Source of the DNA: Methanolobus vulcani
GTDB lineage: Archaea > Halobacteriota > Methanosarcinia > Methanosarcinales > Methanosarcinaceae
NCBI RefSeq assembly: GCF_900100715.1
Contig: NZ_FNCA01000002.1
Coordinates: 372,001 to 436,000 of the forward strand
DNA length: 64,000 nucleotides
Direction of reading: 5' to 3'
The notes below the pieces were generated by a model that was given only the letters and a program-made list of their open reading frames with translations, was not told the DNA's origin and ran no database searches. Of this stretch, positions 27,187 through 46,539 are shown one piece after another (position 1 is the first letter of the stretch; the number at the start of each line of letters is the position of its first letter). Made by a program: the position numbers and the translations under genes.

Positions 27187-27212
27187 GGATTTCCTCACGA
27201 TTAAGTGGGTAA
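27187..27212 (+). repeat. Left inverted end of the ISL3-type element
   Basis: It begins GGATTTCCTC and ends AAGTGGGTAA. Its complement partner is at 28481-28506, the last eight positions (GTGGGTAA) being identical. Confidence 0.55.
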
Positions 27213-27243
27213 TTTAATATTCCTATTCTCCAATTCACTTGTT

Positions 27244-28718: not shown

Positions 28719-29180
28719 ATGAAATTACCAGATAAAGCATTAGTTATAGCATACAACAAGGCACCATTTGTGACTTGTGATTATGATATCCTGTCAGAAA
28801 TATACAAATGTAGTTTGTTTCAAACAGGAAATGGGAGAAAATCTTATCTATATACTACATATAGGCTAGTTATACTATTTTTTAAGATAATATTGGAAAA
28901 ATATTCTCTTGTTTATGTGTGGGGTTTGGATTTCAATAGTATTATTCCTGCAATTTTAAAAAACGTATTAAAATTTAAACTTATAATTGTTCCTTTGGGT
29001 TATGAATTGGATAGAATTGATGAGATTAGCTATGGTAATAACAGTAAGTTTAGAGAGTTTTTAACTTTATATTCGGCTTCAAAAGCTGATAAAATAATTT
29101 GTCAAAGTATGTATATGTCTATTCAAGCAAAAAAGTATGGATTTGACGTTGATACTGTATATCTTTGCATTCAAAACTAG
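28719..29180 (+). CDS. N-terminal half of a split GT4-like glycosyltransferase
   Basis: A 153-aa product resembling the acceptor-side Rossmann domain of a GT-B glycosyltransferase. It starts KALVIAYNKAP and ends with the typical ASKADKIICQS..YGFDVDTVYL linker leading to the donor domain. It stops at TAG 29178. The downstream ORF continues in the same frame after TAG, TGA and TAA within 18 bases, so this is most likely one gene broken by small mutations. Alternatively the halves could be made separately. No ribosome site is obvious at the ATG at 28719. It lies just after the dead insertion sequence. Confidence 0.6.
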   Translation: MKLPDKALVIAYNKAPFVTCDYDILSEIYKCSLFQTGNGRKSYLYTTYRLVILFFKIILEKYSLVYVWGLDFNSIIPAILKNVLKFKLIIVPLGYELDRIDEISYGNNSKFREFLTLYSASKADKIICQSMYMSIQAKKYGFDVDTVYLCIQN

Positions 29181-29195
29181 TTGTGAGATGGGTAA

Positions 29196-29684
29196 ATGGC
29201 AAATATTGTAACAATTGCGTATATGTGTGAAGTTGAAAAACTTTATTATATAAAAGGAATAGATTTTATTGAAAAAATAGCCACTGGATTAAAAGAACAT
29301 ACTTTTTATATATTTGGGAATACTAAAGAGGTTACGTCAATAAATAGTAATGTTCTATTCTGTGGTTTTTTAGATCATGCTGAGCTTCTTAATCGAATGA
29401 CTGAATTTGATTTTTATTTTCAGCCATCAAGATCAGAATCCTTTGGGATGGCGGTTTTAGAGGCAATGCATCAAGGTCTAACTCCTATTGTCTCTAATAA
29501 AGGTGCGCTACCTGAGATTGTTGGTGATACTGGGATTGTCTTTGATTTATCTATTCAAGAGGCTTTGAAAGCTTTAAAAAATCCAGTGAAAACTGATATT
29601 CTCCTACTTAAGGAAAGAACTAATAAATTCTCATATGATAACCGGAGAAAAAAAATCCATGCTATAATCAATGAATTATTTTAA
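29196..29684 (+). CDS. C-terminal half of a split GT4-like glycosyltransferase
   Basis: A 162-aa piece with the donor-binding half of a GT4 enzyme: NIVTIAYMCEV opening strand, IFGNTKEV, then QPSRSESFGMAVLEAMHQG with the family's spaced Glu pair, and GALPEIVGDTG. It begins at the ATG at 29196, preceded by GAGATGGG, which could serve as a ribosome site. It is in the same frame as the upstream half, separated by three stop codons. Alone it would lack an acceptor domain. It converges with an RmlD-like gene 13 bases away. Confidence 0.6.
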   Translation: MANIVTIAYMCEVEKLYYIKGIDFIEKIATGLKEHTFYIFGNTKEVTSINSNVLFCGFLDHAELLNRMTEFDFYFQPSRSESFGMAVLEAMHQGLTPIVSNKGALPEIVGDTGIVFDLSIQEALKALKNPVKTDILLLKERTNKFSYDNRRKKIHAIINELF

Positions 29685-31147: not shown

Positions 31148-32137
31148 ATGGAACAATTTTATTCTGGTAAACGTATTTTAATAACAGGTGGTGCTGGTAG
31201 TATTGGACAGTCACTAGCTGAAAAAATGTTGGAATTTGACCCTGCTGTTATTAGAATTTATGATGCGAATGAAAATGCTCTTTTTCATATGCGTCAGAAA
31301 TATTCTGATGATACAGGGAAAAAAATGAGGTTCCTTTTAGGTGATATCCGCAATTTCAACAGGTTGCAGTATGCTTTCAAAGACATAGATATAGTTTTCC
31401 ATACTGCTGCTTACAAACATGTTCTCGAGTGTGAATATAATCCTATAGATGCCATTGATGTTAATATCAATGGAACAGCAAATGTAATCCAAGCTGCTAT
31501 TTATCAAGGTGTAAATAAAGTTATTTTTACAAGTTCGGATAAAGCAGCAAACCCTTCTAATACAATGGGCACAACAAAGTTACTTGCAGAGAAATTGATT
31601 ACTGCTGCTAATGACTATGGTGCAAATACTACTATCTTTGCATCCTGCAGATTTGGAAATGTGGTCGGTTCAAGTGGATCAGTAGTACCCTTATTTAAGA
31701 AGCAAATATTAGAAGAAAAAAGAGTTACTATTACAGATTCCCAAATGACACGTTTTATGATTACTCAGGATACTGCTATTGATTTGATGCTTAAAGCCGG
31801 TATGTTTTCAGAAGGCGGTGAAATATTTATCTTTAAAATGCCGTCAATAAATATCAATGATTTGGCTGATGCAATGATTTATAAATTCGGAGAAGCTACT
31901 AAAGAATTTATTGGGCGTAAACCTGGAGAGAAGATGTATGAGGAAATAATGACAGAAGAAGATGCTTCTCGTTCATATGAAGGCGAGGATATGTATGTGA
32001 TTTTACCTCAGATTCGAGAAATTGACTATGATCATAATGAACACTTTACAAAAGTACAATCTATAAAAAGTTCAAGGGATATGGATTTGCTTAGTATGGA
32101 TGAAATTTTTACTTTGCTTGAAGGAGCAGGAATATGA
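31148..32137 (+). CDS. UDP-GlcNAc 4,6-dehydratase (PseB/FlaA1/CapD-like)
   Basis: A 329-aa soluble extended SDR. GGAGSIGQSL binds NAD, and AAYKHV is followed by TSSDKAANPSNTMGTTK. In this family the usual catalytic Tyr is Met (MGTTK) and Asp-Lys in the SSDKAAN loop takes over, as in C5-inverting dehydratases FlaA1/PseB. It would turn UDP-GlcNAc into the 4-keto-6-deoxy-AltNAc intermediate of pseudaminic acid synthesis. ATG 31148 follows GAGGAG; a TTG further up at 31136 overlaps that site. It overlaps the next gene by 4 bases (ATGA) and heads a long operon. Confidence 0.82.
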   Translation: MEQFYSGKRILITGGAGSIGQSLAEKMLEFDPAVIRIYDANENALFHMRQKYSDDTGKKMRFLLGDIRNFNRLQYAFKDIDIVFHTAAYKHVLECEYNPIDAIDVNINGTANVIQAAIYQGVNKVIFTSSDKAANPSNTMGTTKLLAEKLITAANDYGANTTIFASCRFGNVVGSSGSVVPLFKKQILEEKRVTITDSQMTRFMITQDTAIDLMLKAGMFSEGGEIFIFKMPSININDLADAMIYKFGEATKEFIGRKPGEKMYEEIMTEEDASRSYEGEDMYVILPQIREIDYDHNEHFTKVQSIKSSRDMDLLSMDEIFTLLEGAGI

Positions 32138-33066
32138 ATATACTTGTAACTGGTGGTGCTGGTTTTATTGGAAGGTGGGTTGTAAAGAGATTACTGGATG
32201 ATGGGAATGACGTACTGGTTCTTGATGATCTTTCTAATGGACGGGAACAAAATATAAGTGAATTTCAGGTAAATCCCTCGTTTAGTTTTGTAGAAGGTGA
32301 CATTAAAGATTCTGCTCTTATTTCCAAGCTTTTCTCAAACAAATTAGACATATGTATCCATCTTGCAGCAAGTATTATTGTGCAAGATAGTATAGATGAC
32401 CCTCGGAAAACTTTTGAAAATGATGTAATCGGTACCTTCAATGTTCTTGAAGAAGCTAGAAAACATGGAACCAAAATAGTTTTTATGAGTACGTGTATGG
32501 TATATGATCTTGCAAAATCAGATGGTGCAATTGGAGAGAATCATCCTACTAAGCCTGCTTCTCCATATGCAGGTGCTAAACTTGCAGGAGAAAATATGGT
32601 ACAGTCTTACTATCATGCATATGGTTTGCCCACTGTTATTCTCAGACCTTTCAACACATATGGTCCTTTCCAGAAGAGTACTGGTGAAGGTGGGGTCGTT
32701 GCAGTTTTCCTTAAACAGGATATCGAAGGTGAATATCTCAATATCTACGGGGATGGTACACAGACCCGCGACCTCATGTACGTAGAGGATTGTGCTGACT
32801 TTCTCGTGAGAGCAGCATATTCTGATATTGTGAATGGAGAACTGTTGAATGCTGGACTCGGAAAAGATATAACTATCAACGATTTAGCTTCTATAATTTG
32901 CGGTGATTCAAAAAGAATTAAACATGTGGAGCATATTCATCCTCAGAGTGAGATTGCTAAACTTGTTTGCGATAATAGTAAGGCTTACAAGGTTTTGGAA
33001 TGGAAGCCAGAAACTCCTCTTGAAGAAGGTATAGAGAAGACACGTAAATGGCTTAAACAAAATTGA
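32134..33066 (+). CDS. NAD-dependent nucleotide-sugar epimerase/dehydratase
   Basis: A 310-aa extended SDR. It has GGAGFIGRWVVKRL at the N-terminus, AASIIVQDS, STCMVYD (Ser/Thr of the triad), YAGAK (Tyr-x-x-x-Lys), RPFNTYGP and DLMYVEDCADF. It is most like GalE/WbpP-type C4 epimerases or RmlB-type dehydratases, and sequence alone does not decide. Overlap with the preceding PseB-like gene suggests it acts on a nucleotide sugar of the same pathway, perhaps supplying or epimerising a UDP-HexNAc. The next gene follows after 21 bases. Confidence 0.8.
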   Translation: MNILVTGGAGFIGRWVVKRLLDDGNDVLVLDDLSNGREQNISEFQVNPSFSFVEGDIKDSALISKLFSNKLDICIHLAASIIVQDSIDDPRKTFENDVIGTFNVLEEARKHGTKIVFMSTCMVYDLAKSDGAIGENHPTKPASPYAGAKLAGENMVQSYYHAYGLPTVILRPFNTYGPFQKSTGEGGVVAVFLKQDIEGEYLNIYGDGTQTRDLMYVEDCADFLVRAAYSDIVNGELLNAGLGKDITINDLASIICGDSKRIKHVEHIHPQSEIAKLVCDNSKAYKVLEWKPETPLEEGIEKTRKWLKQN

Positions 33067-33087
33067 AGTATGAATGTGGCAATTTAA

Positions 33088-34221
33088 ATGAAGTATATTC
33101 CCTACGGTTTTCAGTGGATTGATGAAAACGATATTCGCGAAGTTATCAGTGTTCTGAAAAGTGACTGGATAACCACCGGTCCCAAAATTCAAGAATTTGA
33201 GGATGCTCTTTGTAGATATACAGGCGCATCACATAGTGTAGCTGTAAATAGTGGTACAAGTGCATTGGATATTTCAGTTCAATCACTGGAGTTACCACCA
33301 AGCTCTGAAGTAATAACAACTCCATTTACATTTGTTGCTACTTCCAATTCTATAATCTATAATGGACTAAAACCTGTTTTTGCAGATATCTGCGAAGATA
33401 CTAGGAATATAGATCCAGATTCCATAAGGAATAAAATAAGTGAAAGGACAAAGGCTATTATATATGTGGATTATGCGGGACAGCCTTGTGATATCAAAGA
33501 GATTAAAGAAATTGCCGAAGATTTTGATTTGTATTTGATTGAGGATGCTTCTCATGCAATTGGTTCGGAGTATGAAAACAAAAAAACAGGCACTTTTGCA
33601 GACATGACGATTTTCAGTTTTCATCCGGTGAAACATATAACAACGGGTGAAGGCGGAGCTGTGTTGACAGACAATGAAGAGCTCCATGAAAAGTTATCAA
33701 TGCTGCGTAGTCACGGCATAGATAAAACCACATCTGAAAGATATGGTCCGGATGCCTCATGGGCTTATGACATGAAGTACCTTGGAAGAAATTATAGAAT
33801 CACAGATTTTCAGGCTGCTCTTGGAATATCTCAACTGGGCAAACTTGATTCCTATCTGGACAAAAGACGTGAAATAGCTGGTATATACAGTGAGCTTTTT
33901 GCAGATGTTCCTGAAATAACCATCCCATCGGTTAGGAAGAACCTGAAACATAGCTGGCATCTTTATACTGTACTTATAGATTCAAGGGTTCACAGGGACG
34001 TTTTTTTTGGGAAAATGAGGGCAAATAATATAGGTGTCAACCTTCATTACATTCCTATTTATAAGTTCTCTTATTATCAGGGAAAATACGGCTCAATTGG
34101 TGAACTCCCTGTTACTGAGGATGTTTTCAAGAGAATAATTACGCTACCTTTATTCCCTCGCATGCAGTACGATGATGTCTTGAAGGTAGTTGAAACCACA
34201 AAAAAATTACTAAGTAAGTAA
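33088..34221 (+). CDS. PLP-dependent 4-amino sugar transaminase (PseC/DegT family)
   Basis: A 377-aa DegT/DnrJ/EryC1 aminotransferase. The N-terminus IPYGFQWIDENDI followed by SDWITTGPKIQEFE is close to PseC-type enzymes. VNSGTSALD binds the cofactor phosphate. IEDASHAIG and FSFHPVKHITTGEGG contain the PLP-binding Lys. It would aminate the 4-keto product of the PseB-like dehydratase using glutamate. Gene order dehydratase, epimerase, aminotransferase, acetyltransferase matches nonulosonate clusters. The start is ATG 33088. Confidence 0.85.
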   Translation: MKYIPYGFQWIDENDIREVISVLKSDWITTGPKIQEFEDALCRYTGASHSVAVNSGTSALDISVQSLELPPSSEVITTPFTFVATSNSIIYNGLKPVFADICEDTRNIDPDSIRNKISERTKAIIYVDYAGQPCDIKEIKEIAEDFDLYLIEDASHAIGSEYENKKTGTFADMTIFSFHPVKHITTGEGGAVLTDNEELHEKLSMLRSHGIDKTTSERYGPDASWAYDMKYLGRNYRITDFQAALGISQLGKLDSYLDKRREIAGIYSELFADVPEITIPSVRKNLKHSWHLYTVLIDSRVHRDVFFGKMRANNIGVNLHYIPIYKFSYYQGKYGSIGELPVTEDVFKRIITLPLFPRMQYDDVLKVVETTKKLLSK

Positions 34222-34230
34222 GGTGAGATG

Positions 34231-34824
34231 ATGTATCGTCCATTTATTGTTGGGATGAATATATATCTGAGAGGTCTGGAGAGATCAGATATTGAAGATC
34301 CGTATTTCCAATGGCTCAATGACAGGGAAGTTACCCAATTTATGGAATCTGGTAATTTTCCTAATACTTTAGAGGATATGGAGTCTTTTTTCCAGAGTAA
34401 TTCCTTGAACAAAGATACTGTGATTTTTGCTATAATAGATTCTCAGACCGATAAACATATAGGAAATGTGAAACTTGGACCGATAAACTGGATATCAAGG
34501 AATTCTCATATGGGAATTATGATAGGAGATAAGGCTTCTTGGGGAAAGGGTTACGGTTACGAGTGTGTGAAGCTGATTGTGGATTATGCATTTAATGTAT
34601 TGAATTTGCACAAAGTAATGCTGGGAGTTGTCGAACAGAACAAGGCGGCTTTAAAACTTTATCAAAAGGTGGGTTTTACAATTGAAGGTATATGTAAAGA
34701 GCAGTTTAATCTGGATGGCAAGTACTGTGATGTTCTTTATATGGGACTGTTGAAAAGGGATTATTTAACTACTAATGGAAGCATTTGCTTTGATCCAGAT
34801 GGAATAGATTTCTATGTGGATTAG
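34231..34824 (+). CDS. GNAT N-acetyltransferase (PseH-like)
   Basis: A 197-aa GNAT protein that would acetylate the 4-amino group made by the PseC-like enzyme. The opening NIYLRGLERSDIEDPYFQWLND and the acetyl-CoA loop KASWGKGYGYECVKL, followed by LHKVMLGVVEQNKAALKLYQKVGF, are characteristic of the RimJ/PseH branch. Two ATGs stand in tandem at 34228 and 34231. AGGTGA at 34221-34226 is better spaced for the second. It lies 9 bases after the aminotransferase. A 167-base gap follows. Confidence 0.82.
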   Translation: MYRPFIVGMNIYLRGLERSDIEDPYFQWLNDREVTQFMESGNFPNTLEDMESFFQSNSLNKDTVIFAIIDSQTDKHIGNVKLGPINWISRNSHMGIMIGDKASWGKGYGYECVKLIVDYAFNVLNLHKVMLGVVEQNKAALKLYQKVGFTIEGICKEQFNLDGKYCDVLYMGLLKRDYLTTNGSICFDPDGIDFYVD

Positions 34825-34991
34825 ATTGATTCATTCCAAATGTAAACTTTTGAAAATGTTATCTATAATAATGATGAATAATTTAACTAGGTATATAGAT
34901 ATTCTCATAGATTATTCTGTACCTTGTAAAATAGCAACTAATGTACCTATAGATTTTTCAGTAAATAGGAATATTTTTAAGATGGATTAGA

Positions 34992-35957
34992 ATGGCGGTA
35001 TATCAAGAAAGCAACATTTTGGTAACAAGTGTATCAAAAAAAATTCCACTCATCAGGTCTCTTCGAAAAGCAAGCCTAATGTTTGGAAATAAAGTAAAAA
35101 TATTCGGTGCAGACAGCAACAATAATTGTATTGGAAAGTACTTTGTGGATGAGTTTTGGAACATGCCTTTACTTGATCAAATGAATATCGAATATCTAAT
35201 AGACTATTGCAAAAATCATGGCATTTCATACATTGTCCCCAGTCGTGACGGTGAATTGCTTTATTTTTCTAAATTCAAAAGCAAGCTAAAACACCATAAC
35301 ATTCATGTTATGGTGTCAGATTATGATACAATCAAAACCTGTTTGGACAAATTGACATTTTCTGAAAGACTTTATGCCAATGGTTTCCCTGTAGTAATGA
35401 CTGTAGAAGACATAGGATGTTTAGAGAGCGATTATTATGTTGTGAAAGAAAGGTTTGGAGCAGGATCGCGGAGCATAGGCTTAAAGTTAAGTAGAAAAGA
35501 ATCTATTGAGCACGCAGAGCAACTTAAAAATCCTATTTATCAACCATTTATTTTCGGGAAAGAATATAGTGTTGACTTGTATGTAGATAAAACTAGTAAA
35601 ACAAAAGGCATTGTTGTCCGCGAAAGAGAACTTGTCGTAAATGGTGAGTCTCAAATTACGGTGACTCTTAGGAATGACAAGTTAGAGAAGTTATGCGGTA
35701 AACTTGCTGAAAGTATTGGTATTTGTGGACATGCAGTTTTACAGGTTTTAATTGATGATTATGGAATGTTTCATATAGTAGAGTGTAACAGCCGTTTTGG
35801 TGGAGCTTCATCGCTAAGTTTTGAAGTGGGCTTACATAGTTTTTATTGGTTTTTGTTGGAGTCTGTTGGTAAAAATATAAATGATTATCCTTTTATTCGG
35901 TCAAAGAGGGAAAAAAGACAGGTGCGTTATGCGGAAGACATGTTCATCAGTGAATAA
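34992..35957 (+). CDS. ATP-grasp ligase in the nonulosonate block
   Basis: A 321-aa carboxylate-amine ligase-like protein. The N-terminal preATP-grasp domain resembles carbamoyl-phosphate-synthase-like enzymes (NILVTSVSKKIPLIRSL). The ATP-grasp part includes VVKERFGAGSRSIGLKL and the metal-binding end MFHIVECNSRFGGASS. It would join a carboxylate to an amine through an acyl phosphate. ATP-grasp genes of this type occur with HAD and SpsF genes in pseudaminate-like clusters, but the substrate is not established. It may add an amino acid or amide to the nonulosonate. The gap upstream contains no obvious ribosome site. Confidence 0.75.
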   Translation: MAVYQESNILVTSVSKKIPLIRSLRKASLMFGNKVKIFGADSNNNCIGKYFVDEFWNMPLLDQMNIEYLIDYCKNHGISYIVPSRDGELLYFSKFKSKLKHHNIHVMVSDYDTIKTCLDKLTFSERLYANGFPVVMTVEDIGCLESDYYVVKERFGAGSRSIGLKLSRKESIEHAEQLKNPIYQPFIFGKEYSVDLYVDKTSKTKGIVVRERELVVNGESQITVTLRNDKLEKLCGKLAESIGICGHAVLQVLIDDYGMFHIVECNSRFGGASSLSFEVGLHSFYWFLLESVGKNINDYPFIRSKREKRQVRYAEDMFISE

Positions 35958-35985
35958 ATAAGAAACTCAAAAAGGAGATATATAT

Positions 35986-36885
35986 ATGGCAGAAGATTCT
36001 TACAAAGTTATAAAAGATTCTATATTTCAACATAAACATTTAGATCCTGTTCCTAGGAATGAGGAACTTACCGATTTCTATCAAAGTAAATATTTTGACT
36101 TAATCCGCAAGGGGGGACGTGCTCCTGAAATTCGCCGTTTAATGGCTGGAGGTGAAACGGCGGAACAAGAAAGGAACTGGTTAAGAAATACGCTTTATTC
36201 TGATATTAGTTATGTGCTTGGTCAGAATTCCTTAGGCAACCGAGTTCTGGATATTGGATGTGGAACCGGGGATCTTGTGGCATTTTTGAAAGAAAATGGA
36301 TATGATGCACATGGTATTGAACCTTCTTCAGATGCAGTTGAGATTGCATTATCCAATGACCTTTGTGTTTACAACTCTACGCTGGAAGATTACGTAGCAA
36401 AGTTCTCTCAATCAAGTGAAAGGTATGATGCGGTAACTCTTATGAACGTTCTTGAGCATGTTCCTGATCCATCAAACATTATGGAATGTGTGAAAAAAAT
36501 ATTAAAACCAGATGGAATTATTTGTGTTAGAGTTCCCAACGATTATAATGGATTGCAATTAGCTGCCCAAAAAAAATTAAATAAGGAACCTTGGTGGATA
36601 GCAGTTCCTGATCATATTAATTACTTTGATTTTAAATCACTGCGTAATTTTTTTGAACATATGGGATTCGAGGTTTTTTATGAACAGAGTGATTTCCCTA
36701 TGGAATTGTTTTTGTTAATGGGTGATGATTACGTAAACGATCCTGAGCTAGGTTCAGTTTGTCACAAAAAAAGAGTATCTTTTGAAACAGCAGTTCCCCG
36801 CGAACTGAGGCGTCAGATGTATCGTTCGATGGCAGATTTAGGATTGGGCCGCTGCTGTTTAACCTTTGGTAGGAAATCAGTATGA
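35986..36885 (+). CDS. Class I SAM-dependent methyltransferase
   Basis: A 299-aa protein with a central Rossmann core. Motif I is VLDIGCGTGDLVAFL, the acidic residue is in HGIEPSSDAVE, and MNVLEHVPDP and RVPNDYNG follow. It belongs to the UbiG/Methyltransf_12-like group frequent in glycan loci, where it methylates a sugar hydroxyl or terminates a chain. GGAGATAT precedes the ATG at 35986. It overlaps the HAD gene by 4 bases, so the two are translationally coupled. The target is not known. Confidence 0.8.
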   Translation: MAEDSYKVIKDSIFQHKHLDPVPRNEELTDFYQSKYFDLIRKGGRAPEIRRLMAGGETAEQERNWLRNTLYSDISYVLGQNSLGNRVLDIGCGTGDLVAFLKENGYDAHGIEPSSDAVEIALSNDLCVYNSTLEDYVAKFSQSSERYDAVTLMNVLEHVPDPSNIMECVKKILKPDGIICVRVPNDYNGLQLAAQKKLNKEPWWIAVPDHINYFDFKSLRNFFEHMGFEVFYEQSDFPMELFLLMGDDYVNDPELGSVCHKKRVSFETAVPRELRRQMYRSMADLGLGRCCLTFGRKSV

Positions 36886-37589
36886 AAGCAGTGCTGTTTG
36901 ACTTAGATAATACATTGTATCCCGAAATAGATTTTGTAATAAGTGGTTTCAAGGTAATTTCAGAATATATTGCAGACCAATACGATTTAGACCAAAGCAG
37001 TTTGCTACAAAGGATGTTGACAATACTAGATAGAGATGGGAGAGGTAAAATCTTTGATACTTTACTTCAGGAGTTGAATTTGCAAAATGAAATAAATGTA
37101 GAGTTGCTAGTCTATCTGTATCGCTCTCATATTCCTGCGATTCATCTGGATGAAGATGTTTTATTAACATTCGAATATTTTAAAAACAAAGGAATCGCGT
37201 TAGGAGTTATTACTGATGGTGAGGTTTTAGTTCAAAGAAACAAAATATTTGCCTTGGGGTTAGAGAGTATGTTTGATGTGATTATATATACAGATTTATT
37301 AGGAAGAAACTATTGGAAGCCATCCACAGTTCCTTTTGACATAGCTCTTGATATTCTACAAGTTTCTTATAATGATGCAACATACGTTGGTGATGATATT
37401 AGTAAAGACTTCAGGGGTCCTAATTACTTGGGTATGACTACTATCCAAATCACAAGAAATGAGAAAATAGGTTTTCCAGAAATTTTAACAAATAGCTCTT
37501 ATTCAACAGCTCATACAAAACCCAAATTCATAGTTGACAAGCTTGGCGAAATTATATCAATTGGAGGAAAATATGATGATTATAAATAA
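36882..37589 (+). CDS. HAD-superfamily phosphatase
   Basis: A 235-aa HAD hydrolase. Motif I FDLDNTLYPE holds the nucleophile and acid/base Asp. Motif II is VITDG, motif III Lys lies near RNYWKPS, and motif IV is YVGDDISKDFRG. It may remove phosphate from a sugar or nonulosonate-9-phosphate. It lies between the methyltransferase and the PseI-like synthase. Its 3' end overlaps the first 17 bases of the synthase, whose ribosome site lies within this gene. Confidence 0.82.
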   Translation: MKAVLFDLDNTLYPEIDFVISGFKVISEYIADQYDLDQSSLLQRMLTILDRDGRGKIFDTLLQELNLQNEINVELLVYLYRSHIPAIHLDEDVLLTFEYFKNKGIALGVITDGEVLVQRNKIFALGLESMFDVIIYTDLLGRNYWKPSTVPFDIALDILQVSYNDATYVGDDISKDFRGPNYLGMTTIQITRNEKIGFPEILTNSSYSTAHTKPKFIVDKLGEIISIGGKYDDYK

Positions 37590-38616
37590 TAGACCAATCG
37601 GTCTAGGTTACCCTACGTATATGATTGCCGAAATATCTGCAAATCATCATCATAATTTTGAAGAAACCGTTAAAACTATCAAACAGGCCAAGCTCGCCGG
37701 GGCAGATGCGATCAAATTACAAACTTATACTGCTGACACTATAACAATCAAAAAAGACACCGCTCCATTTAGGCACAGTTCGGGATCTCTTTGGGAAGGC
37801 CGCACACTTTATGACCTTTACACTGAAGCTTATATGCCTTGGGAATGGCAACCTAAACTTAAAGAAATTGTTGAAAAACTTGGAATGGACTTCTTCTCAA
37901 GTGCTTTTGATCCGACAGCTGTGGATTTCCTTGAAGAGCTAGGGGTTCCAGTACACAAAATAGCATCTTTCGAGATAGTGGATATCCCTTTGATAGAAAA
38001 AATGGCCCGTACAGGAAAACCGTTGATTATTTCAACGGGGATGGCAACTATTGGAGAAATAGAAGAGGCTGTAACTGCTGCAAAAAAAGCAGGAGCAACT
38101 CAGATTGCTCTTCTCAAGTGTACGAGTGCCTATCCAGCTTCTGCAGAGGATATGAACTTACGTACAATTCCACATCTGATAGATACTTTTGGGTTACCGG
38201 TCGGGTTATCAGATCATACATTGGGTGTTGTGTCATCTATAACATCAGTGGCTCTTGGTGCTTGTATTGTTGAGAAACATTTCACTCGTTCACGATCGGT
38301 TCCAGGGCCCGATAGTGCTTTTTCAATAGAGCCTCATGAATTTAAGGAGATGGTTGAGGCTATTCGTATCACAGAAAAAGCCTTAGGAAAAATTCATTAT
38401 GGTCCAACAGGAGATGAAAATAAAAGCAAAATATTTAGACGTTCACTTTTTGTTGTCAAAGATATCAAGGCTGGTGAGAAATTTACAAATGATAACATCC
38501 GTTCAATTCGTCCGGGAAATGGTCTTCACCCTAAATATCTAGGAGGAGTGTTGGGTCGTATTGCAACACAAGATATCGCTTCTGGAACGCCTTTAGAATG
38601 GACACATGTCGGATGA
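37573..38616 (+). CDS. Pseudaminic acid synthase-like enzyme (PseI/NeuB family)
   Basis: A 347-aa PEP-dependent condensing enzyme, TIM barrel plus C-terminal SAF (antifreeze-like) domain (from about residue 285: RRSLFVVKDIKAGEKFT). Diagnostic are MIAEISANHHHNFEETV, DAIKLQTYTADT and SLWEGRTLYDLYTEAYMPWEW. The last is a PseI rather than sialic acid synthase feature. It would condense PEP with a 2,4-diacetamido-trideoxyhexose to give the nine-carbon acid. ATG 37573 has GGAGG 6-10 bases upstream; the longer frame from 37534 is rejected. Confidence 0.88.
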   Translation: MMIINNRPIGLGYPTYMIAEISANHHHNFEETVKTIKQAKLAGADAIKLQTYTADTITIKKDTAPFRHSSGSLWEGRTLYDLYTEAYMPWEWQPKLKEIVEKLGMDFFSSAFDPTAVDFLEELGVPVHKIASFEIVDIPLIEKMARTGKPLIISTGMATIGEIEEAVTAAKKAGATQIALLKCTSAYPASAEDMNLRTIPHLIDTFGLPVGLSDHTLGVVSSITSVALGACIVEKHFTRSRSVPGPDSAFSIEPHEFKEMVEAIRITEKALGKIHYGPTGDENKSKIFRRSLFVVKDIKAGEKFTNDNIRSIRPGNGLHPKYLGGVLGRIATQDIASGTPLEWTHVG

Positions 38617-38755
38617 AATGCCTGTTAGGTGGAACTTTTGTAGACTAGTTACTAGTCGAATCTATTGCATAATACCGTTGATTGAGAATTATGTTTTCAA
38701 TTAAAATGCAATTGTAAATAATCTGTAAATATAGTTATCAGGGGATATTGAAAAC

Positions 38756-39757
38756 ATGTTAGGTTTGGTTATAGGCTGTGGTTCAATAGGAAAACGACAC
38801 ATTTCTAATCTGATAAAATTAAAAAACTGTCAGGTTATTGCTTATGATATTAGTGAAAACCAGCGATTGCAAGTAGAGGATAAATTTAAGATCACAGTTT
38901 TTGATAATTTATGTGATGCTTTTGAACAAAAACCTATGTTTGCGGTTATCTGTAGTCCTACATACCTGCACATAGAACATGCCATTCTTGCAGCACAGAA
39001 TGGATGTCATCTTTTTATTGAAAAACCTCTCTCAAATTTAATGACTGGTATGAATACGTTGTTTGAAGATGTTTCTAGCCAAAAATTGATAACATTTATT
39101 GGTTGTAACATGAGATTTCATCCGGGTCCTTCTAAAGTTAAGGAAATAATTTCTTCAGGTAAGATTGGCAAGATTCTCTATGCACGGATTGAAACCTCTT
39201 CTTACCTTCCTGGCTGGCGACCAGAGCAGGATTATAAAAAATCTTACTCTGCTAATGAACAGCAGGGAGGTGGTTGTGTCTTGGATAGCATACATGAACT
39301 AGATCTTGCTTGCTGGTACTTGGGTGATGTAAAATCAGTTTTCAGTGTAACCCGAAATCTTGGGTTTCTGGGGATTGATGCTGAGGAAATATCAGAAATA
39401 ATCTCTGATTTTTATTCTGGTACGATTGCCAGCATACATCTTGATTATGTTTCTCAAAATTATGTAAGGAGGAATCATATTATTGGTGAATATGGTTCTA
39501 TTTTTTGGGATTTTAATTGCGTTACCGTTGATGTATATCTAGCTTCAACCAATGAATGGGAAGTCCATAAACTACCTGAAAATTATGATCTTAATGAGAT
39601 GTACATTGATGAAATGCGTTACTTCATATCATGTATTACTGATAAAACCGACTCATTTAACGATATTGGATTTGCTTTGAAAACTTTAAGGTACGCTCTT
39701 GCTGTAAAGGAATCGTCTGAATTAAAGTGTATGGTAACTTTGGAGGAAATTGAATGA
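38756..39757 (+). CDS. Gfo/Idh/MocA-family oxidoreductase
   Basis: A 333-aa NAD(P)-dependent sugar dehydrogenase. The Rossmann opening is GLVIGCGSIGKRHISNL, the conserved lysine motif is IEKPLSN, and the C-terminal alpha/beta domain contains GGGCVLDSIHELDL. It oxidises or reduces a sugar ring carbon. Here it overlaps the SpsF-like gene by 4 bases and sits inside the nonulosonate block, suggesting a modified nonulosonate or precursor as substrate. A second Gfo/Idh protein with a different likely role lies at 56709. Confidence 0.82.
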   Translation: MLGLVIGCGSIGKRHISNLIKLKNCQVIAYDISENQRLQVEDKFKITVFDNLCDAFEQKPMFAVICSPTYLHIEHAILAAQNGCHLFIEKPLSNLMTGMNTLFEDVSSQKLITFIGCNMRFHPGPSKVKEIISSGKIGKILYARIETSSYLPGWRPEQDYKKSYSANEQQGGGCVLDSIHELDLACWYLGDVKSVFSVTRNLGFLGIDAEEISEIISDFYSGTIASIHLDYVSQNYVRRNHIIGEYGSIFWDFNCVTVDVYLASTNEWEVHKLPENYDLNEMYIDEMRYFISCITDKTDSFNDIGFALKTLRYALAVKESSELKCMVTLEEIE

Positions 39758-40509
39758 TAATAGGCATTGTCCAAGCACGTATGGGGTCTACAAGATTTCC
39801 GGGTAAAGTGTTGAGGTATATTGATGACAAGACTCTTTTACAACATATGATTGAGCGAATTCAAAGATCAAAATTAATTGATAAGTTCGTGATAGCTACT
39901 TCAGTTGAAGCGGAAAATTCATTGATAGAGGACTTCTGCAATAAAGTAGGAGTTTCATGCTTTAGGGGAAGTGAAAATGATGTCTTAGATAGATATTATA
40001 AGTGTGTAAAATCTTTAGATCCTCTTCCTGATATCATTGTAAGAATGACAGCGGATTGTCCCTTGAGTGACCCCAATGTTATTGATTTTGTTGTGAGGGA
40101 ACTAATTGATAAAAAAGTGGATTATGTGACTAACTCGTTTGAGCCTCTATTTGAAGATGGTTTCGATGTAGAAGCTTTTACTTTTGAGGCACTTGAAGTA
40201 GCATGGAAGAATTCAACACTAAGATCAGAAAGGGAACATGTTACTCCGTATATGAAGAAATCATCTGCAATTAATAAAATTTACAAAAAGTATTCTCATG
40301 ATTACATCTATAAATTGTCTGTTGACACACCGAATGATTTCAAACTAATACAGAATATATTTTCTCAATTGTACTCTCCTGAAAAAATATTTACTATGAT
40401 GGATGTTGTAAATCTCTTAAAGTCTTACCCAGAAATGCTAGATATAAACAGTGAAAGTGTAATCAATGAAGGCTACAAGAAATCACTGTCAATGGATAAA
40501 ACAGATTAA
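39754..40509 (+). CDS. SpsF-like cytidylyltransferase (candidate CMP-nonulosonate synthetase)
   Basis: A 251-aa nucleotidyltransferase of the KdsB/NeuA fold. It has the P-loop-like start IVQARMGSTRFPGKVL, the FRGSENDVLDRYYK loop, MTADCPLSDP with the metal-binding Asp, and a later DVEAF. SpsF/PseF-type enzymes activate nonulosonic acids with CTP. In this block it is the only candidate for activating the PseI product, the other cytidylyltransferase being KdsB at 48646. It overlaps the upstream oxidoreductase (ATGA). Confidence 0.82.
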   Translation: MIIGIVQARMGSTRFPGKVLRYIDDKTLLQHMIERIQRSKLIDKFVIATSVEAENSLIEDFCNKVGVSCFRGSENDVLDRYYKCVKSLDPLPDIIVRMTADCPLSDPNVIDFVVRELIDKKVDYVTNSFEPLFEDGFDVEAFTFEALEVAWKNSTLRSEREHVTPYMKKSSAINKIYKKYSHDYIYKLSVDTPNDFKLIQNIFSQLYSPEKIFTMMDVVNLLKSYPEMLDINSESVINEGYKKSLSMDKTD

Positions 40510-40540
40510 TAAATATATGTGATTGTTAAGGTGTTTTAAT

Positions 40541-41863
40541 ATGGTTAGTACCAGAAAAGGTGTTGAAACTTGGAACAGGGCAAAAAAAATTATCCCTGGT
40601 GGAAGTCAGTTATTATCAAAACGTTCAGAAATGTTCCTCCCTGATATCTGGCCTTCCTATTATAAAAAAGCAGAAGGTGTAGAGGTTTGGGACCTTGATG
40701 ATAACAGGTTTATAGACATGTCTCTTATGGGTGTAGGTTCTTGTGTCCTGGGTTATTCCGATGAAGATGTCAATAAGGCTGTAAAATCTGCTGTAGATAA
40801 TGGTAGTATGTGTACTCTTAATGCACCTGAGGAAGTAGAACTTGCAGAGCTTTTAATAAAACTCCATCCGTGGGCAGATATGGTAAGATATGCCCGGACT
40901 GGCGGTGAAGCCATGTCTATAGCTGTGAGAATTGCAAGGGCAAAAAGTGGGAAGGAGATTGTACTTTTTTGTGGATATCATGGCTGGCATGATTGGTATC
41001 TGTCGTCCAATCTGGCAGATGAGAAATCTCTTGACGGACATCTTCTGCCAGGATTGAATCCTAGAGGTGTGCCAAGAAATCTTAAAGGCTTAACTCTCCC
41101 ATTCAATTACAACGATACAGAAGGTTTTATGAAACTAATCGCTGAAAATAAAAACCATGTAGGGGTAGTTGTACTCGAATCAATAAGAAATAACTACCCG
41201 AATAAAGAATTCATTGAGACTATCAGGCGAGTGACAAGGGAAATGAATATCATTCTAGTAGTAGATGAAATAACTGCAGGTTTTAGGCTAAATAATGGAG
41301 GTGCACATCTCATACTTGATTTTGAGCCTGATATAGCAGTCTTTGCAAAAGGAATTAGCAATGGTTTCCCTATGGCTGCAATAATAGGAAAAATGGATGT
41401 TATGGAAGCTTCTCAGGATACCTTCATTAGCAGTACTTATTGGACTGATAGAGTAGGACCAACGGCCGCTTTGGCTACAATCAACAAGTTTATTGATGAG
41501 AATGTTGCTATGCATCTTGCCAGTACAGGAAAAAAGGTAATGGATGGTTGGAAGCAACTTGCTGATGACCATAATATTGATATTGAAATTTCGGGTATAG
41601 ATCCATTAGGGCATTTCGAGTTTAAAAACGAAAAACCGCTGGTTTTCAAAACCCTTGTTACACAGTTGATGCTTGAAAAGGGATTTCTTGCTACAAACGC
41701 CTTTTATGCATCTTATGCCCACAAAGATGTCCACATAGGAGATTATTTGAGTGCTCTTGATTTATCCTTCGAATTAATTTCGAAAATAATTCATGACAAG
41801 TCAAAGCCGGAAAAATATCTGAATGGTTCTGTATGTCAATCAGGATTCAAAAGATTAACTTGA
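40541..41863 (+). CDS. Class III PLP aminotransferase (glutamate-1-semialdehyde aminomutase-like)
   Basis: A 440-aa fold-type I PLP enzyme. Blocks include NRAKKIIPGGSQLLSKR, RTGGEAMSIAVRIARA (phosphate contact), GYHGWHDWY, VVDEITAGFR and AVFAKGISNGFPM with the Schiff-base Lys. It is too divergent in context to be the tetrapyrrole enzyme HemL. Such proteins recur next to SpsF in pseudaminate-like clusters and may transfer an amino group to the nonulosonate side chain. ATG 40541 follows AAGGTG; the earlier frame at 40523 is not favoured. Confidence 0.8.
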   Translation: MVSTRKGVETWNRAKKIIPGGSQLLSKRSEMFLPDIWPSYYKKAEGVEVWDLDDNRFIDMSLMGVGSCVLGYSDEDVNKAVKSAVDNGSMCTLNAPEEVELAELLIKLHPWADMVRYARTGGEAMSIAVRIARAKSGKEIVLFCGYHGWHDWYLSSNLADEKSLDGHLLPGLNPRGVPRNLKGLTLPFNYNDTEGFMKLIAENKNHVGVVVLESIRNNYPNKEFIETIRRVTREMNIILVVDEITAGFRLNNGGAHLILDFEPDIAVFAKGISNGFPMAAIIGKMDVMEASQDTFISSTYWTDRVGPTAALATINKFIDENVAMHLASTGKKVMDGWKQLADDHNIDIEISGIDPLGHFEFKNEKPLVFKTLVTQLMLEKGFLATNAFYASYAHKDVHIGDYLSALDLSFELISKIIHDKSKPEKYLNGSVCQSGFKRLT

Positions 41864-42031
41864 AACGTTTTATACCTCAAAACAAGAAATATCTATAGAA
41901 TAAAAGATTCAATAAATACTTCATTTGTTCTCAAGATGTAGAATTAAGGTTTCTTAAGAAAGTTGTTTTACTAGCAAGAGTATAATTCCATTTTAAGCAG
42001 TTGATTGGGTAAATTCAGGAGATGTGCAAGC

Positions 42032-42781
42032 ATGAAATTTGGTTTAAAATTGTGGTCCATCAATACAAATTTAGTTGATCAAGCTGTCAGTTTAATAGAT
42101 AGTAAGATATTTGATTACATTGAATTATTTGTGGTGCCTGGTAGTACTATCGAGTTTTTTTCAATAGATATTCCATATGTAATTCATATTCCGCATGATA
42201 CATTTGGTGTTAATATTGGGGATTCATCGTTAGATCGACATTCATTAAAACTAATCAATGAATCTATCAATTGGGCGGACAGTTTAGATGCAAAATATAT
42301 CATACTCCATCCAGGTTATGGTTCACTTGAACATGCATCCTGCTTCTTAAGCAAAATTTCAGACCCTCGCTTACTTATTGAGAATATGCCAAAAATAGGT
42401 CTAGGTGGTGAACTGATGATTGGCTATTCGTCGGCTCAGATAGAATATCTAATTGGGGATAATGAAATGGGTCTATGTTTAGATTTGGCACATGCTGTGA
42501 AAGGGGCGGTTAGTTTAGGGATAGACTATAAATCTTATATTAAGGAATTTATGAATTTGGATCCTCGAATGTTCCATATCAGTGATGGTACGCTAAATGT
42601 GGAAACAGACCAGCATTTGAATATAGGTGAAGGAGAATATGATTTCTCTTTTATGCAACAGTGTATAGATAGTAGCTCCACCGGTTTTGTGACTATGGAA
42701 ACCCCAAGAATAAACTTAGGATCGTTGGCTGAAGATATTTTAAATTTAGAAAGACTTAGATGTATACTCAATTATAAATAG
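42032..42781 (+). CDS. Xylose-isomerase-like TIM-barrel protein
   Basis: A 249-aa AP-endonuclease-2/xylose-isomerase-like TIM barrel. KFGLKLWSIN is strand 1. Metal ligands are in LHPGYGS, LLIENMP (Glu), CLDLAHA (Asp/His), FHISDG (His) and VTMETPR (Glu). It probably isomerises or epimerises a sugar or sugar acid. ATG 42032 has AGGAG upstream; the frame opens earlier at 42005. It ends the nonulosonate block and precedes two large glycosyltransferase-like genes. Confidence 0.72.
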   Translation: MKFGLKLWSINTNLVDQAVSLIDSKIFDYIELFVVPGSTIEFFSIDIPYVIHIPHDTFGVNIGDSSLDRHSLKLINESINWADSLDAKYIILHPGYGSLEHASCFLSKISDPRLLIENMPKIGLGGELMIGYSSAQIEYLIGDNEMGLCLDLAHAVKGAVSLGIDYKSYIKEFMNLDPRMFHISDGTLNVETDQHLNIGEGEYDFSFMQQCIDSSSTGFVTMETPRINLGSLAEDILNLERLRCILNYK

Positions 42782-42818
42782 ATTATTTCAGACTTCTTTA
42801 TGTACCTTGGGGATTCAT

Positions 42819-44702
42819 ATGAAAAATGATGAGAAAAAAGTCGTATTTTTTGAAAACATAAATATATCTTTCTACAAAACCTGTGTGTCATATCTAAACA
42901 ATGGGTATATAGTATACTTTTTTAAAATAGATAATTCTTTTCTCACTAAATCGCCTATTAGAAATAACTTGGATAACAGGAAATTAATAAATATTTCAGA
43001 ATTATCTTTTGATTATTCTCTATTTACTAAAGCAGCATTTTTTTCTCACAAGAATCTGGACTCAGTTTTTGAAAGATATTTGACATCGCCGTTAATAAGG
43101 TACGTTTCTAACCTTTATGATTCTTCTAAAGTTGTGGATGTTTATAGAAAAGAACTGATGGGAGTTTTGAACACAGTTTATACAATGGAACTAAAAATCA
43201 ATGCAATAATTGAAAATTCAGTGGAAGTTGTGATCTTCTGTCCTGTTAACAACTATTGTTTACATTCAAGTGAGTTTTCTTTACTATCTGGAAAGGTTCA
43301 TGTAAAAGCATTCAATAATCGGAGTGTCTTATTAACAAGATTGCAAAGCAAAATGAAAAATATAGTCCTTTTGTTTTATCCATTTTACATATTGTTTAAT
43401 AAAGTAAAACCTCTCCCTTCAAAGAAAAAAGATGTAAAAGAAATTAGGATTGGGCTTAATGCAAATCTTCCTGGCTTTTTTGGGTTCAATCATCATTATA
43501 TTGGTTATATAATTGATGAGATTTATGGATTACCAAAAAGTGAAGTACTGTTTATTGATGAGACTTTTGAAGCACAAAATTCCGTTGATTTTAGAAAATA
43601 TGGCTACATGCACACAGATTTCAGGAATAAAAGAGAACGTATAAGCAAAACCTTTGCATCTAAAATAATTTCTGAATTCATTCCTGTTTGGTTATTTTGT
43701 TTAAGGAGGGCATATAAAGAAGAAGATTTTATTATTAAATCAACTAGAATTATTTTAGTAGATTATATTAAGTGGAACATGTTTCTGGATTCCTATTCTA
43801 TTGAAAAACATATTACGGTACTTCTTCCAGATAATATTTCCAAAACTCTCCTTTTGGAAAAAAAAGGTGTTAAGACATTTTACATATATCCAGATAACTA
43901 TGCAGGTGATTATCATATAGCTCAGGATGACTCTCTCCCAAATTCTGTTTTTTATATATTCATGCATGTAAATCATGCAATAATTTTCGGAAATAAGGTT
44001 GAGAGATTTTTTAATGTTAATCGTAATTCTATTAACCATTACCACAAAGTAGGCGTGCTTGCATCTCAGAAAGTAAGGGAATTGAAAGAAGGATTAATTG
44101 ACTCGGATTTATTTCCAATAAATAAAAAGAAAGAGTTGCCAGAGAAAATAGTTGCTGTATTTGATACTTCTTTTGTAGACTATGGCCCGTTAAAAGTGAA
44201 GGATGGAATCAAATTTGGTGAAGATATTTTGTATCTGTTGCAAGATTTTCCTGAAATTGGTGTAATTTTCAAAGAAAAAAAATTCCTTTCTGAAACTCCT
44301 GAACTTGCCCCTATTTATGAACAACTTGAAAAACACGAACGTTGTTACGTTGTCAGAAAGAGCAAAGAAGAAATCCATTTTAGCTATGAAGTCATTGCCT
44401 CTGCGGACCTTGTAATCTCGGCTGCTTACACTTCTACGACCGCTGAAGCCCTTGCCTCAAGGACCAAGGCTGTATATTATGATGTAGCAGGTACTGATAT
44501 TGACGAGAAATATTATTTCAACTCTTTTCCTAATCTAGTAGCTCATAATTATAGTGATCTTAAAAGACTGGTGAACTATTGGCTGTATGAAGTTGATATC
44601 AAACAGTTCAATAACTTTTTAGAAACATATGTGAAGGGGGAAATTGATCCTTACCTTGACTGTAAAGCTATTGACAGATTGCATCAAATACTTAAAAATT
44701 AA
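42819..44702 (+). CDS. Large GT-B-like surface glycan transferase, candidate CMP-sugar user
   Basis: A 627-aa protein that I cannot place in a named family with certainty. It looks like two Rossmann-type halves. The C-terminal half has KIVAVFDTSFVDYGPL, VIFKEKKF and SADLVISAAYTSTTAEAL (Thr/Ser residues 538-541), then KAVYYDVAGTDID. A Ser/Thr pair after a hydrophobic strand in that place is typical of sialyl- and Kdo-transferase-like GT-B enzymes and CDP-glycerol transferases. It has no clear membrane anchor. ATG 42819 follows TTGGGGATT. It neighbours both CMP-sugar pathways. Confidence 0.6.
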   Translation: MKNDEKKVVFFENINISFYKTCVSYLNNGYIVYFFKIDNSFLTKSPIRNNLDNRKLINISELSFDYSLFTKAAFFSHKNLDSVFERYLTSPLIRYVSNLYDSSKVVDVYRKELMGVLNTVYTMELKINAIIENSVEVVIFCPVNNYCLHSSEFSLLSGKVHVKAFNNRSVLLTRLQSKMKNIVLLFYPFYILFNKVKPLPSKKKDVKEIRIGLNANLPGFFGFNHHYIGYIIDEIYGLPKSEVLFIDETFEAQNSVDFRKYGYMHTDFRNKRERISKTFASKIISEFIPVWLFCLRRAYKEEDFIIKSTRIILVDYIKWNMFLDSYSIEKHITVLLPDNISKTLLLEKKGVKTFYIYPDNYAGDYHIAQDDSLPNSVFYIFMHVNHAIIFGNKVERFFNVNRNSINHYHKVGVLASQKVRELKEGLIDSDLFPINKKKELPEKIVAVFDTSFVDYGPLKVKDGIKFGEDILYLLQDFPEIGVIFKEKKFLSETPELAPIYEQLEKHERCYVVRKSKEEIHFSYEVIASADLVISAAYTSTTAEALASRTKAVYYDVAGTDIDEKYYFNSFPNLVAHNYSDLKRLVNYWLYEVDIKQFNNFLETYVKGEIDPYLDCKAIDRLHQILKN

Positions 44703-44712
44703 AGGAATGAAC

Positions 44713-46539
44713 ATGGGTCTAACTGTTTTAACAGATAAAAGTGTTCTGAAACAATTGAAGTTTAAAAGAACCAGTAATAAATTTATTTATGTAGGGAAGC
44801 AGGATAAAGAAATCTTAAAATTACTTGAAGAGGCAGGGTATATTCAGTTTTTTGTTGATTATTTTGAAAATGAAGAATCCAAGGAAAGATTTGTTCAATC
44901 CTATCTTGATTTAATAGGGTCACTAGGTTCAAAATATTATTCTCTTTGCTGGTGGTCTACTTTTACTTCGTCAAAAAACAAATTTGCTTCAACTCTTTTT
45001 CAAGAACTTCTTCTTTTGCACTCGGTATCAAGATGTCTTGATAATGCTGATGATGATTTATTGTTGATTAATCCCCCAACTTCTGTTCTGCAGTCACTAA
45101 TAAAATATTGTCAGCTGAATTATATTAGTTTTAAAATCATAGATGCTGATGCTTTTTCAATGCCATACAAAATAAAAAACTTCTTTGTTGATTTTATTAT
45201 GAAAATATTCCTGATTTTTAAAACATGGTATCGAATAATTCTGGCAAAATGGTATTTTAGAAACTCAGGAATATATGATCGTAATTCCATAAAGGAATAT
45301 TATGTTCTTAGATCATGGTTTTATGAAAGGTCAATAAATAACAATCATACCTACAAAGATTCTTTTTTTGGAGTTCTTCCTTCTTATCTTTCACAGAAAA
45401 AAGAACTTTTAATAATTGCAGGGATTATAGGAGATTATCGTGCAACACTCTATAAAATTAAAAAGAATAAAGAATTTTTAATTTTACCACAGGAATATTT
45501 TGCAGATTTTCTCGATCCTGTTCGATCTATTGTTAATGTGATAATTAATAAAGTATACATAAAAAGTGTCGATTTTATGGGTATTGAAGTATCAGATTTG
45601 ATAAATTTCCATCTTAGAGAGGATTATATCTATACTGCGGCAGAGGAATGTTTGCAGAAATACTATATTGAAGGTTTAGTCAATAAATTTAAAATAAATA
45701 CTTTTACGACAACCTTTGAAAATAATCCATGGGAAAAAGTTTGTTTCATGACTCTTAAGCAGAAAAGTCCAAAAACTAAACTAATTGGATATCAACATGC
45801 GGTATTATCTCCTTCATCTTTAAATATGTTTGTAAGCAGTCATGAAAAAAAATTCATTCCATTACCTGATAGAATTATAACTACTGGTAGGGTTACCAAA
45901 GATATGCTTGAAAAATATGGTCAATATGATCCTGATATTTTGAAAGAAGGTTGTGCTCTGAGGTTTGAATATCTTTATAGTATTGCTAAAAAAGAGCGTA
46001 AGGTTAATCACACTATACTTGTCACACCGGAAGGTGTTTTGGCTGAATGTGTCAATCTTTTTAATTTCATATATGAATCTTTAAAAGACTGCAACAAAAT
46101 TGATGTCATTTTCAGATCTCATCCTGCTCTTCCATTTGAATCTTTCCAAAAGTATCTTCTATTTGATGTCAACGATTTTCCTCATTTCCATCTTTCAATA
46201 AATGATTCTTTAAAAGATGATCTCTTTTTAGCTGATATTCTCGTTTACAGAGGAAGTTCAACATCAATTGAAGCTTTGAAGACTGGACTCCCTATAATTT
46301 ATGTATCAACAAATGAATTATTAAGTGTTGATCCTCTTTTTGAGTGTGAGTTTTTAAAATGGAAAGTAATAACAAATAATGAATTTGTTTGCGCTTTGAA
46401 GGAAATTTACAATTTGGATGAAGACACTTATAATTTACAATGGAAACTAGCTAACCTTTATCTTAATAAATATATATCTCCTATTACAAATGATAAAATG
46501 AATACTTTCTTCTTTGAGGAAAAGGATGAAAATGAATAA
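44713..46539 (+). CDS. Large GT-B-like surface glycan transferase with HP and SST motifs
   Basis: A 608-aa protein of the same general type as its neighbour. Its second half has LVTPEGVLAE, FRSHPALPFE (His470-Pro471) and VYRGSSTSIEALKTGLPII (Ser515-Ser516-Thr517). The HP and S-S/T motifs are the shared CMP-binding signatures of bacterial sialyltransferase-like GT-B families, also seen in Kdo transferases. This makes it the best candidate here for transferring a nonulosonate or Kdo residue. ATG 44713 is six bases after AAAGGA; an in-frame start inside the preceding gene is less likely. Its end overlaps the next gene by 14 bases. Confidence 0.62.
   Translation: MGLTVLTDKSVLKQLKFKRTSNKFIYVGKQDKEILKLLEEAGYIQFFVDYFENEESKERFVQSYLDLIGSLGSKYYSLCWWSTFTSSKNKFASTLFQELLLLHSVSRCLDNADDDLLLINPPTSVLQSLIKYCQLNYISFKIIDADAFSMPYKIKNFFVDFIMKIFLIFKTWYRIILAKWYFRNSGIYDRNSIKEYYVLRSWFYERSINNNHTYKDSFFGVLPSYLSQKKELLIIAGIIGDYRATLYKIKKNKEFLILPQEYFADFLDPVRSIVNVIINKVYIKSVDFMGIEVSDLINFHLREDYIYTAAEECLQKYYIEGLVNKFKINTFTTTFENNPWEKVCFMTLKQKSPKTKLIGYQHAVLSPSSLNMFVSSHEKKFIPLPDRIITTGRVTKDMLEKYGQYDPDILKEGCALRFEYLYSIAKKERKVNHTILVTPEGVLAECVNLFNFIYESLKDCNKIDVIFRSHPALPFESFQKYLLFDVNDFPHFHLSINDSLKDDLFLADILVYRGSSTSIEALKTGLPIIYVSTNELLSVDPLFECEFLKWKVITNNEFVCALKEIYNLDEDTYNLQWKLANLYLNKYISPITNDKMNTFFFEEKDENE

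Follow-up and report, generated by a model that had tools for sequence, protein, structure and literature searches.

The window analysed here, a stretch of 64,000 nucleotides from the archaeal methanogen Methanolobus vulcani, carries a gene block at positions 31148-42781 that very likely encodes a pseudaminic-acid-type pathway in which PseG, the usual hydrolase, is predicted from sequence to be replaced by an unrelated metal-dependent phosphoesterase. The candidate is an endonuclease-IV-like TIM barrel, here termed the TIM protein, encoded at 42032-42781. An initial annotation of the block had proposed that another enzyme does the PseG step. The results support this proposal and single out a gene inside the block itself. 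They cover the absence of PseG and NeuC, the gene neighbourhood, the way in which the TIM protein and PseG exclude each other, their swaps on the PseI tree, gene fusion, metal ligands and fold, all obtained by computation.

Search for PseG and NeuC in the genome

In pseudaminic acid synthesis, hydrolysis of the uridine diphosphate (UDP) sugar is usually carried out by PseG, an enzyme of the GT-B fold. The whole window genome (G000; 2.95 Mb, 99.98% complete) was searched with the PseG model TIGR03590 (cut-off 153.55 bits) and with TIGR03568, the model for the NeuC/LegG hydrolysing 2-epimerase. Neither model found a match at E<=0.001 in G000; positive-control genomes did give matches in both searches. 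Thus a hidden PseG or NeuC was ruled out by these searches, and the initial observation that no PseG-like hydrolase is visible in the block holds genome-wide. A PseG gene elsewhere in the genome, named at the outset as the finding that would speak against a substitute, was looked for with the same model and not found. Two proteins encoded just downstream of the block were rejected as PseG. Both are 631 amino acids long (42807-46539); their matches are to PFTS (TIGR04417), over its cut-off, and weakly to the LIC13510 family (TIGR04326). They are candidate glycosyltransferases for the nonulosonate.

Distribution of the TIM protein and PseG

The distribution was analysed in two genome sets, 237 genomes of the host's class and 74 genomes of the phylum to which a Termititenax genome belongs. 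PseG was called in genomes with TIGR03590 and in loci with a profile of 17 PseG sequences. In the class set, the pseudaminic acid synthase PseI was over its cut-off in 19 of 237 genomes. Full-length PseG (at least 118 bits) was present in 9 genomes, 4 of them among the 19 with PseI. The TIM-protein profile reached at least 399 bits in 11 genomes; below these the score dropped to 45 and 44 bits for two matches that lie outside the 11. All 11 genomes have PseI over the cut-off and none shows a PseG match above 25 bits. Gene maps were drawn for 18 other loci: the TIM gene directly adjoins PseI in 10, and the four PseG-bearing loci had no TIM gene. The second set gave a similar picture, with the TIM protein (at least 258 bits) in 9 genomes, full-length PseG (at least 87 bits) in 11 and no overlap. 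Its 11 PseI-positive genomes comprise 6 with the TIM protein, 4 with PseG, 1 with a PseG fragment (G312, an end piece of 43 residues at a contig edge) and none with both. Taken together, the 30 PseI-positive genomes of both sets include 17 with the TIM protein, 8 with PseG, 1 with the fragment, 4 with neither and 0 with both. The zero overlap between 17 and 8 among 30 has a hypergeometric p of 2e-4, a value that ignores kinship.

The TIM alignment was then used as sole query against 84,980 species, which returned 24 loci. Ten of these duplicate records already present in the two genome sets, and 14 are further ones. The archaeal loci belong to Methanosarcinales, Altiarchaeales, Nanoarchaeota and Methanofastidiosum, the bacterial ones to Eremiobacterota, Staskawiczbacteria, Saganbacteria, Termititenax, Vogelbacteria, Holosporaceae and Riflebacteria, plus two unplaced. 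PseI was found in 21 of the 24 loci and in 11 of the 14 further ones. Among the loci lacking it, L056 (genome G241) has the TIM gene at a contig edge, and the genome of L061 encodes PseI (508 bits) on a different contig, at its beginning. The PseG profile gave no match above 22.1 bits in the 24 loci, and TIGR03590 exceeded its cut-off in none of the 17 genomes of these loci (best match 31.6 bits, partial). Some TIM-bearing genomes do contain partial PseG-model matches of 20-32 bits, as would be seen if a diverged PseG had been overlooked. This explanation is very improbable: full-length PseG scores 87-300 bits even across phyla, nothing is found in G000 at E<=0.001, and the weak matches cover only part of the model and probably belong to other enzymes of the GT-B fold.

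Seven-gene clusters, gene fusions and the PseI tree

L049 and L050 hold a seven-gene cluster in the order PseB-cupin-PseC-SpsF-GNAT-PseI-TIM. All steps can be assigned in these clusters save the removal of UDP, and the only genes left over are the TIM gene and an FdtA-like cupin, whose family was taken from a search with like genes. Many Methanosarcinaceae clusters whose PseB is of the Tyr type likewise encode, between the PseB and PseC genes, an FdtA/WxcM-like cupin of about 135 amino acids (for example L028 15298-15702 and L030 4696-5094). It could be a ketoisomerase or epimerase altering the product.

Gene fusions link the TIM protein to the same neighbour as PseG. A C-terminal GNAT domain is present on the TIM protein in L060, L064, L068 and L069, and PseG-GNAT fusions occur in L043 and L044. 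The acetyltransferase step immediately precedes the hydrolase step, so two proteins of unrelated fold have each gained a fusion partner of the same kind.

The first PseI tree calculated had 43 rows. L047-L053 and L058-L060 were omitted as duplicate records, L056, L061 and L065 have no PseI, and L142 was labelled PseG by hand owing to its contig-end fragment. In this tree the TIM/PseG label changes 7 times, and starred branches force at least 6 changes for either label. For a more careful tree of 37 rows, L045, L054, L057, L063, L149 and L150 were also omitted as long or divergent. Here 6 changes are needed; the minimum forced by starred branches is 4 for the TIM label and 3 for PseG, and a single clade of the PseG-type rows was rejected (p-AU 6e-59). 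The window PseI clusters with three PseG-type PseI (97* in the 43-row tree, 98/97* in the 37-row tree). The repeated label changes suggest that PseI stayed functional while the hydrolase was swapped several times.

Fold and metal site of the TIM protein

The initial annotation had called this gene product a TIM-barrel isomerase. The barrel was confirmed; its ligand set is that of trinuclear endonuclease IV and goes beyond the set of a sugar isomerase. The protein matches PF01261 (AP-endonuclease-2 superfamily) with 46.2 bits, above the gathering score of 31.1, and stays below the endonuclease IV cut-offs of NCBIfam (TIGR00587 20.9 bits, cut-off 129.65; NF002196 33.5 bits, cut-off 333). Its AlphaFold model is a TIM barrel (pLDDT 90.9). 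The nearest solved structure is MJ1311 (3wqo) with a Z of 24.8, and Thermus endonuclease IV (3aam) follows with 22.7; with these as top matches, the predicted model lacks the GT-B fold of PseG. A sequence-profile ranking likewise placed MJ1311 and endonuclease IV on top, and a Foldseek search with the model also returned MbnB. Residues H53, H94, E118, D152, H155, H183, D194, H196 and E224 (counted from the codon at 42029) stand at what we take to be the endonuclease IV metal-ligand positions. These nine presumed ligands, D194-x-H196 included, are invariant in 27 of 27 distinct family members, down to members only 31-34% identical to the window protein. They align with endonuclease IV (8axy) and MJ1311; the pairing of the first His is least sure, as this residue is found where the aligned fragment ends. 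The complete ligand set suggests hydrolysis at phosphorus rather than isomerisation.

Many of the structural neighbours are ketose epimerases and isomerases, and four genomes do without both PseG and the TIM protein. Both observations would fit a TIM protein that is a sugar isomerase or epimerase changing the stereochemistry of an intermediate, with an unspecific cellular hydrolase removing UDP. We regard this as unlikely. Single-metal isomerases use the ligand set E-D-H-E, and H53, H94, H155, D194 and H196, which lie beyond that set, are invariant. Moreover, the strict alternation with PseG, the swaps on the PseI tree and the PseH-like fusion that mirrors that of PseG would be left unexplained. 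An oxidation-elimination by the Gfo/Idh oxidoreductase of the block together with the TIM protein was also considered and dropped, because Gfo/Idh is present in few mapped TIM clusters and the ligand set fits hydrolysis.

Proposed reaction and observations that weigh against it

From these results we infer the reaction, the bond that would be broken and the metals. The PseB/SDR, PseC and PseH-like enzymes would produce UDP-2,4-diacetamido-2,4,6-trideoxy-L-altrose. This compound is the most likely substrate of the TIM protein, which would hydrolyse it by attack of a metal-activated water on phosphorus, that is, with P-O cleavage, unlike the GT-B enzyme PseG. The free sugar would then pass to PseI, whose product would be activated by SpsF with cytidine monophosphate (CMP). 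Direct release of UDP is favoured over formation of uridine monophosphate and sugar-1-phosphate, because the seven-gene clusters contain no second phosphatase. On a wider scale, an as yet unnamed endonuclease-IV-like trinuclear family of archaea and several bacterial phyla likely represents a second, unrelated solution for UDP removal that cleaves at phosphorus, has been swapped with PseG several times and here would feed a decorated nonulosonate on an archaeal glycan.

Several observations weigh against PseG replacement by the TIM protein. In the window the TIM gene is separated from PseI by four genes. L065 (G249) and L056 (G241) have a TIM gene, yet no PseI was found in either genome. The fold is common to many sugar isomerases and epimerases (Z 20-22), and to our knowledge no activity has been assigned to a member of the TIM-protein family so far. 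Because the dehydratase and the acetyltransferase of the window miss the cut-offs for PseB and PseH, the precise substrate may be another one. Finally, both PseG and the TIM protein (best match 35 bits) are missing from 4 of the 19 PseI-positive genomes of the class set (G119, G120, G135 and G137), and these carry the ATP-grasp/HAD set that is also found in the window.

Thus some other solution must exist at least once. In the 43-row tree, the PseI of these four genomes form a single clade (98*) within TIM-type archaea, which indicates one event and not four. Their loci (L028, L033, L034 and L039) contain GNAT, SDR, ATP-grasp, HAD, PseI and methyltransferase genes. The HAD gene lies beside PseI in all four genomes, and in L028, L034 and L039 no other hydrolase is evident in the cluster. 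It is therefore conceivable that the HAD phosphatase, in the window at 36882-37589, does the step alone or with a pyrophosphatase, and that the TIM protein acts elsewhere. However, HAD enzymes mostly use phosphomonoester substrates, and the ATP-grasp, HAD and methyltransferase genes can just as well be read as a decoration module. As a general substitute for PseG the HAD protein was rejected, since it is missing from most PseG-less clusters, the seven-gene ones included; for the window, too, we hold this assignment to be quite improbable and favour the TIM protein.

Gene content of the block

Genes were assigned to families by NCBIfam curated cut-offs, Pfam and PDB matches. All genes named in the initial annotation were recovered on the plus strand, about where it had placed them. 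The block reads:

31148-32137, plus strand: PseB-like UDP-N-acetylglucosamine (UDP-GlcNAc) 4,6-dehydratase with Met for the catalytic Tyr (PF02719 318 bits; TIGR03589 306.5 bits, cut-off 407.75 missed)
32134-33066, plus strand: SDR epimerase/dehydratase, here SDR2 (PF16363/PF01370 about 200 bits)
33088-34221, plus strand: PseC aminotransferase (TIGR03588 456.2 bits, exceeds cut-off 423.5)
34228-34824, plus strand: PseH-like GNAT acetyltransferase (PF13302 93 bits; TIGR03585 67.2 bits, cut-off 93.1 missed)
34992-35957, plus strand: ATP-grasp ligase, PRK12767-like, presumed decoration (NF009405 150 bits; PF02655)
35986-36885, plus strand: S-adenosylmethionine-dependent methyltransferase, presumed decoration (PF13489 108 bits)
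36882-37589, plus strand: HAD phosphatase, either presumed decoration or a competing candidate for the missing step (PF13419; TIGR02253 99 bits)
37576-38616, plus strand: PseI pseudaminic acid synthase (TIGR03586 474.3 bits, exceeds cut-off 340.25)
38756-39757, plus strand: Gfo/Idh oxidoreductase (PF01408, PF22725)
39754-40509, plus strand: SpsF-like cytidylyltransferase, presumed PseF role (PF02348 122 bits)
40541-41863, plus strand: class III (GSA-type) aminotransferase (PF00202 143 bits)
42032-42781, plus strand: endonuclease-IV-like TIM barrel, the TIM protein, proposed PseG substitute (PF01261 46.2 bits)

Thus PseC and PseI pass their NCBIfam cut-offs, and the PseB-like and PseH-like genes are below theirs. 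The top PDB match of the window PseI is the pseudaminic acid synthase 8h2c (282 bits). The SpsF-like cytidylyltransferase scored just 22 bits against the PseF model, and the HAD phosphatase had weak PDB matches, among them N-acylneuraminate-9-phosphatase at 31 bits. The class III aminotransferase has matches at E<=1e-60 in 7 of the 237 class genomes.

The first gene had been read as PseB-like. In its catalytic triad the dehydratase has Met where most other loci have Tyr, so it may not be a plain PseB. In the mapped loci, Met-type dehydratases (the window, L036, L042 and L045; L047 duplicates the L042 record) are accompanied by SDR2, and the window SDR2 has a 72% identical partner in L036, L042 and L045. 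SDR2 is possibly a separate 5-epimerase as in Pen/Pal, which would make a two-enzyme start. According to PMC7439481, CapE and SpsM also have Met in place of the triad Tyr; given its presence in CapE, Met alone does not settle the stereochemistry.

The remaining genes plausibly decorate the sugar, and an amidated, methylated or aminated nonulosonate could result. Four further genomes of this genus (L028, L033, L034 and L039) also have the ATP-grasp/methyltransferase/HAD set next to PseI, with 33-35% identity for the ATP-grasp ligase and 40-43% for the methyltransferase, and the ATP-grasp/methyltransferase pair recurs in one bacterium (L149). Our guess is that the set may add an acyl decoration, for example an O-methylglyceroyl group. 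L043 encodes a protein 47% identical to the Gfo/Idh oxidoreductase, next to SpsF and a class III aminotransferase. Since SpsF and this aminotransferase occur as a pair both in clusters with the TIM protein and in clusters with PseG, the pair does not depend on the hydrolase present. Some TIM-type clusters contain PIG-L-type deacetylases and formyltransferase domains (L059 14204-14893, L038 8089-8844), which suggests other N-acyl groups.

Other features of the window

An AglB-type oligosaccharyltransferase (STT3 and AglB core with a long peripheral domain) is encoded near the block on the minus strand (21066-23561), and its location suggests protein N-glycosylation as destination of the sugar. 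Genes at 48646-51844 encode KdsB (TIGR00466 212 bits), KdsA (TIGR01362 393 bits), a KpsF/KdsD-type isomerase (TIGR00393 328 bits) and a KdsC-type phosphatase (TIGR01670 153 bits), all over their cut-offs; apparently this is a complete pathway to CMP-activated 3-deoxy-D-manno-octulosonic acid (CMP-Kdo) in an archaeon. A second sugar set at 54956-57713 comprises a NeuD-like acetyltransferase, a PseC/LegC-like aminotransferase and a Gfo/Idh enzyme resembling UDP-GlcNAc 3-dehydrogenase. A secretion ATPase (T2SSE) of 1172 amino acids is encoded at 13344-16862; its match to an intein splicing model is weak (PF14890, cut-off missed with 27.5 bits). Adjacent open reading frames at 27205-28498 resemble, by eye, a broken transposase. 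Two more at 28719-29684 are maybe a split glycosyltransferase, with a Pfam match in the second only.

Comparison with known systems

In searches of an open-access collection that contains few subscription papers, no listed paper reported PseG replacement by the TIM protein. If the assignment is correct, a pathway gap is closed for many archaea and uncultured bacteria, an unassigned enzyme family gains a function and the endonuclease IV fold acquires nucleotide-sugar hydrolysis as a further reaction. Predictions in which genomes of this kind count as incomplete for pseudaminic acid would have to be corrected.

The TIM protein resembles PseG in the proposed step, the position in the cluster, the fusion to a PseH-like GNAT domain and the company of PseI. 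In contrast to the GT-B enzyme, it is an unrelated TIM barrel with metal ligands, a predicted cleavage at phosphorus and no sequence match. With endonuclease IV (Nfo) it shares the fold and the nine aligned presumed metal ligands, but only about 20% identity, and it is shorter (250 residues versus 270-300). Its location in sugar clusters lets us expect a nucleotide sugar as substrate, unlike the DNA of endonuclease IV. MJ1311 (3wqo), named D-tagatose 3-epimerase-like, is the closest structure, with the same nine ligands aligned and 23% identity.

Enzyme replacement in the pseudaminic acid pathway is described in PMC5109656 and PMC7439481 for the Pen/Pal variant of Bacillus thuringiensis, and the Met-type dehydratase and SDR of the window may be a similar split. 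In contrast to the window genome, which has no PseG, clusters of Geobacillus that contain Pen and Pal also have a PseG gene, as stated in PMC5109656. A precedent for the chemistry comes from CbiR, a cobamide-remodelling member of the AP-endonuclease-2 superfamily, which hydrolyses the cobamide phosphodiester according to PMC7733943. CbiR and the TIM protein thus belong to a common superfamily in which CbiR hydrolyses the phosphodiester of a metabolite, but they differ in substrate and gene neighbourhood.

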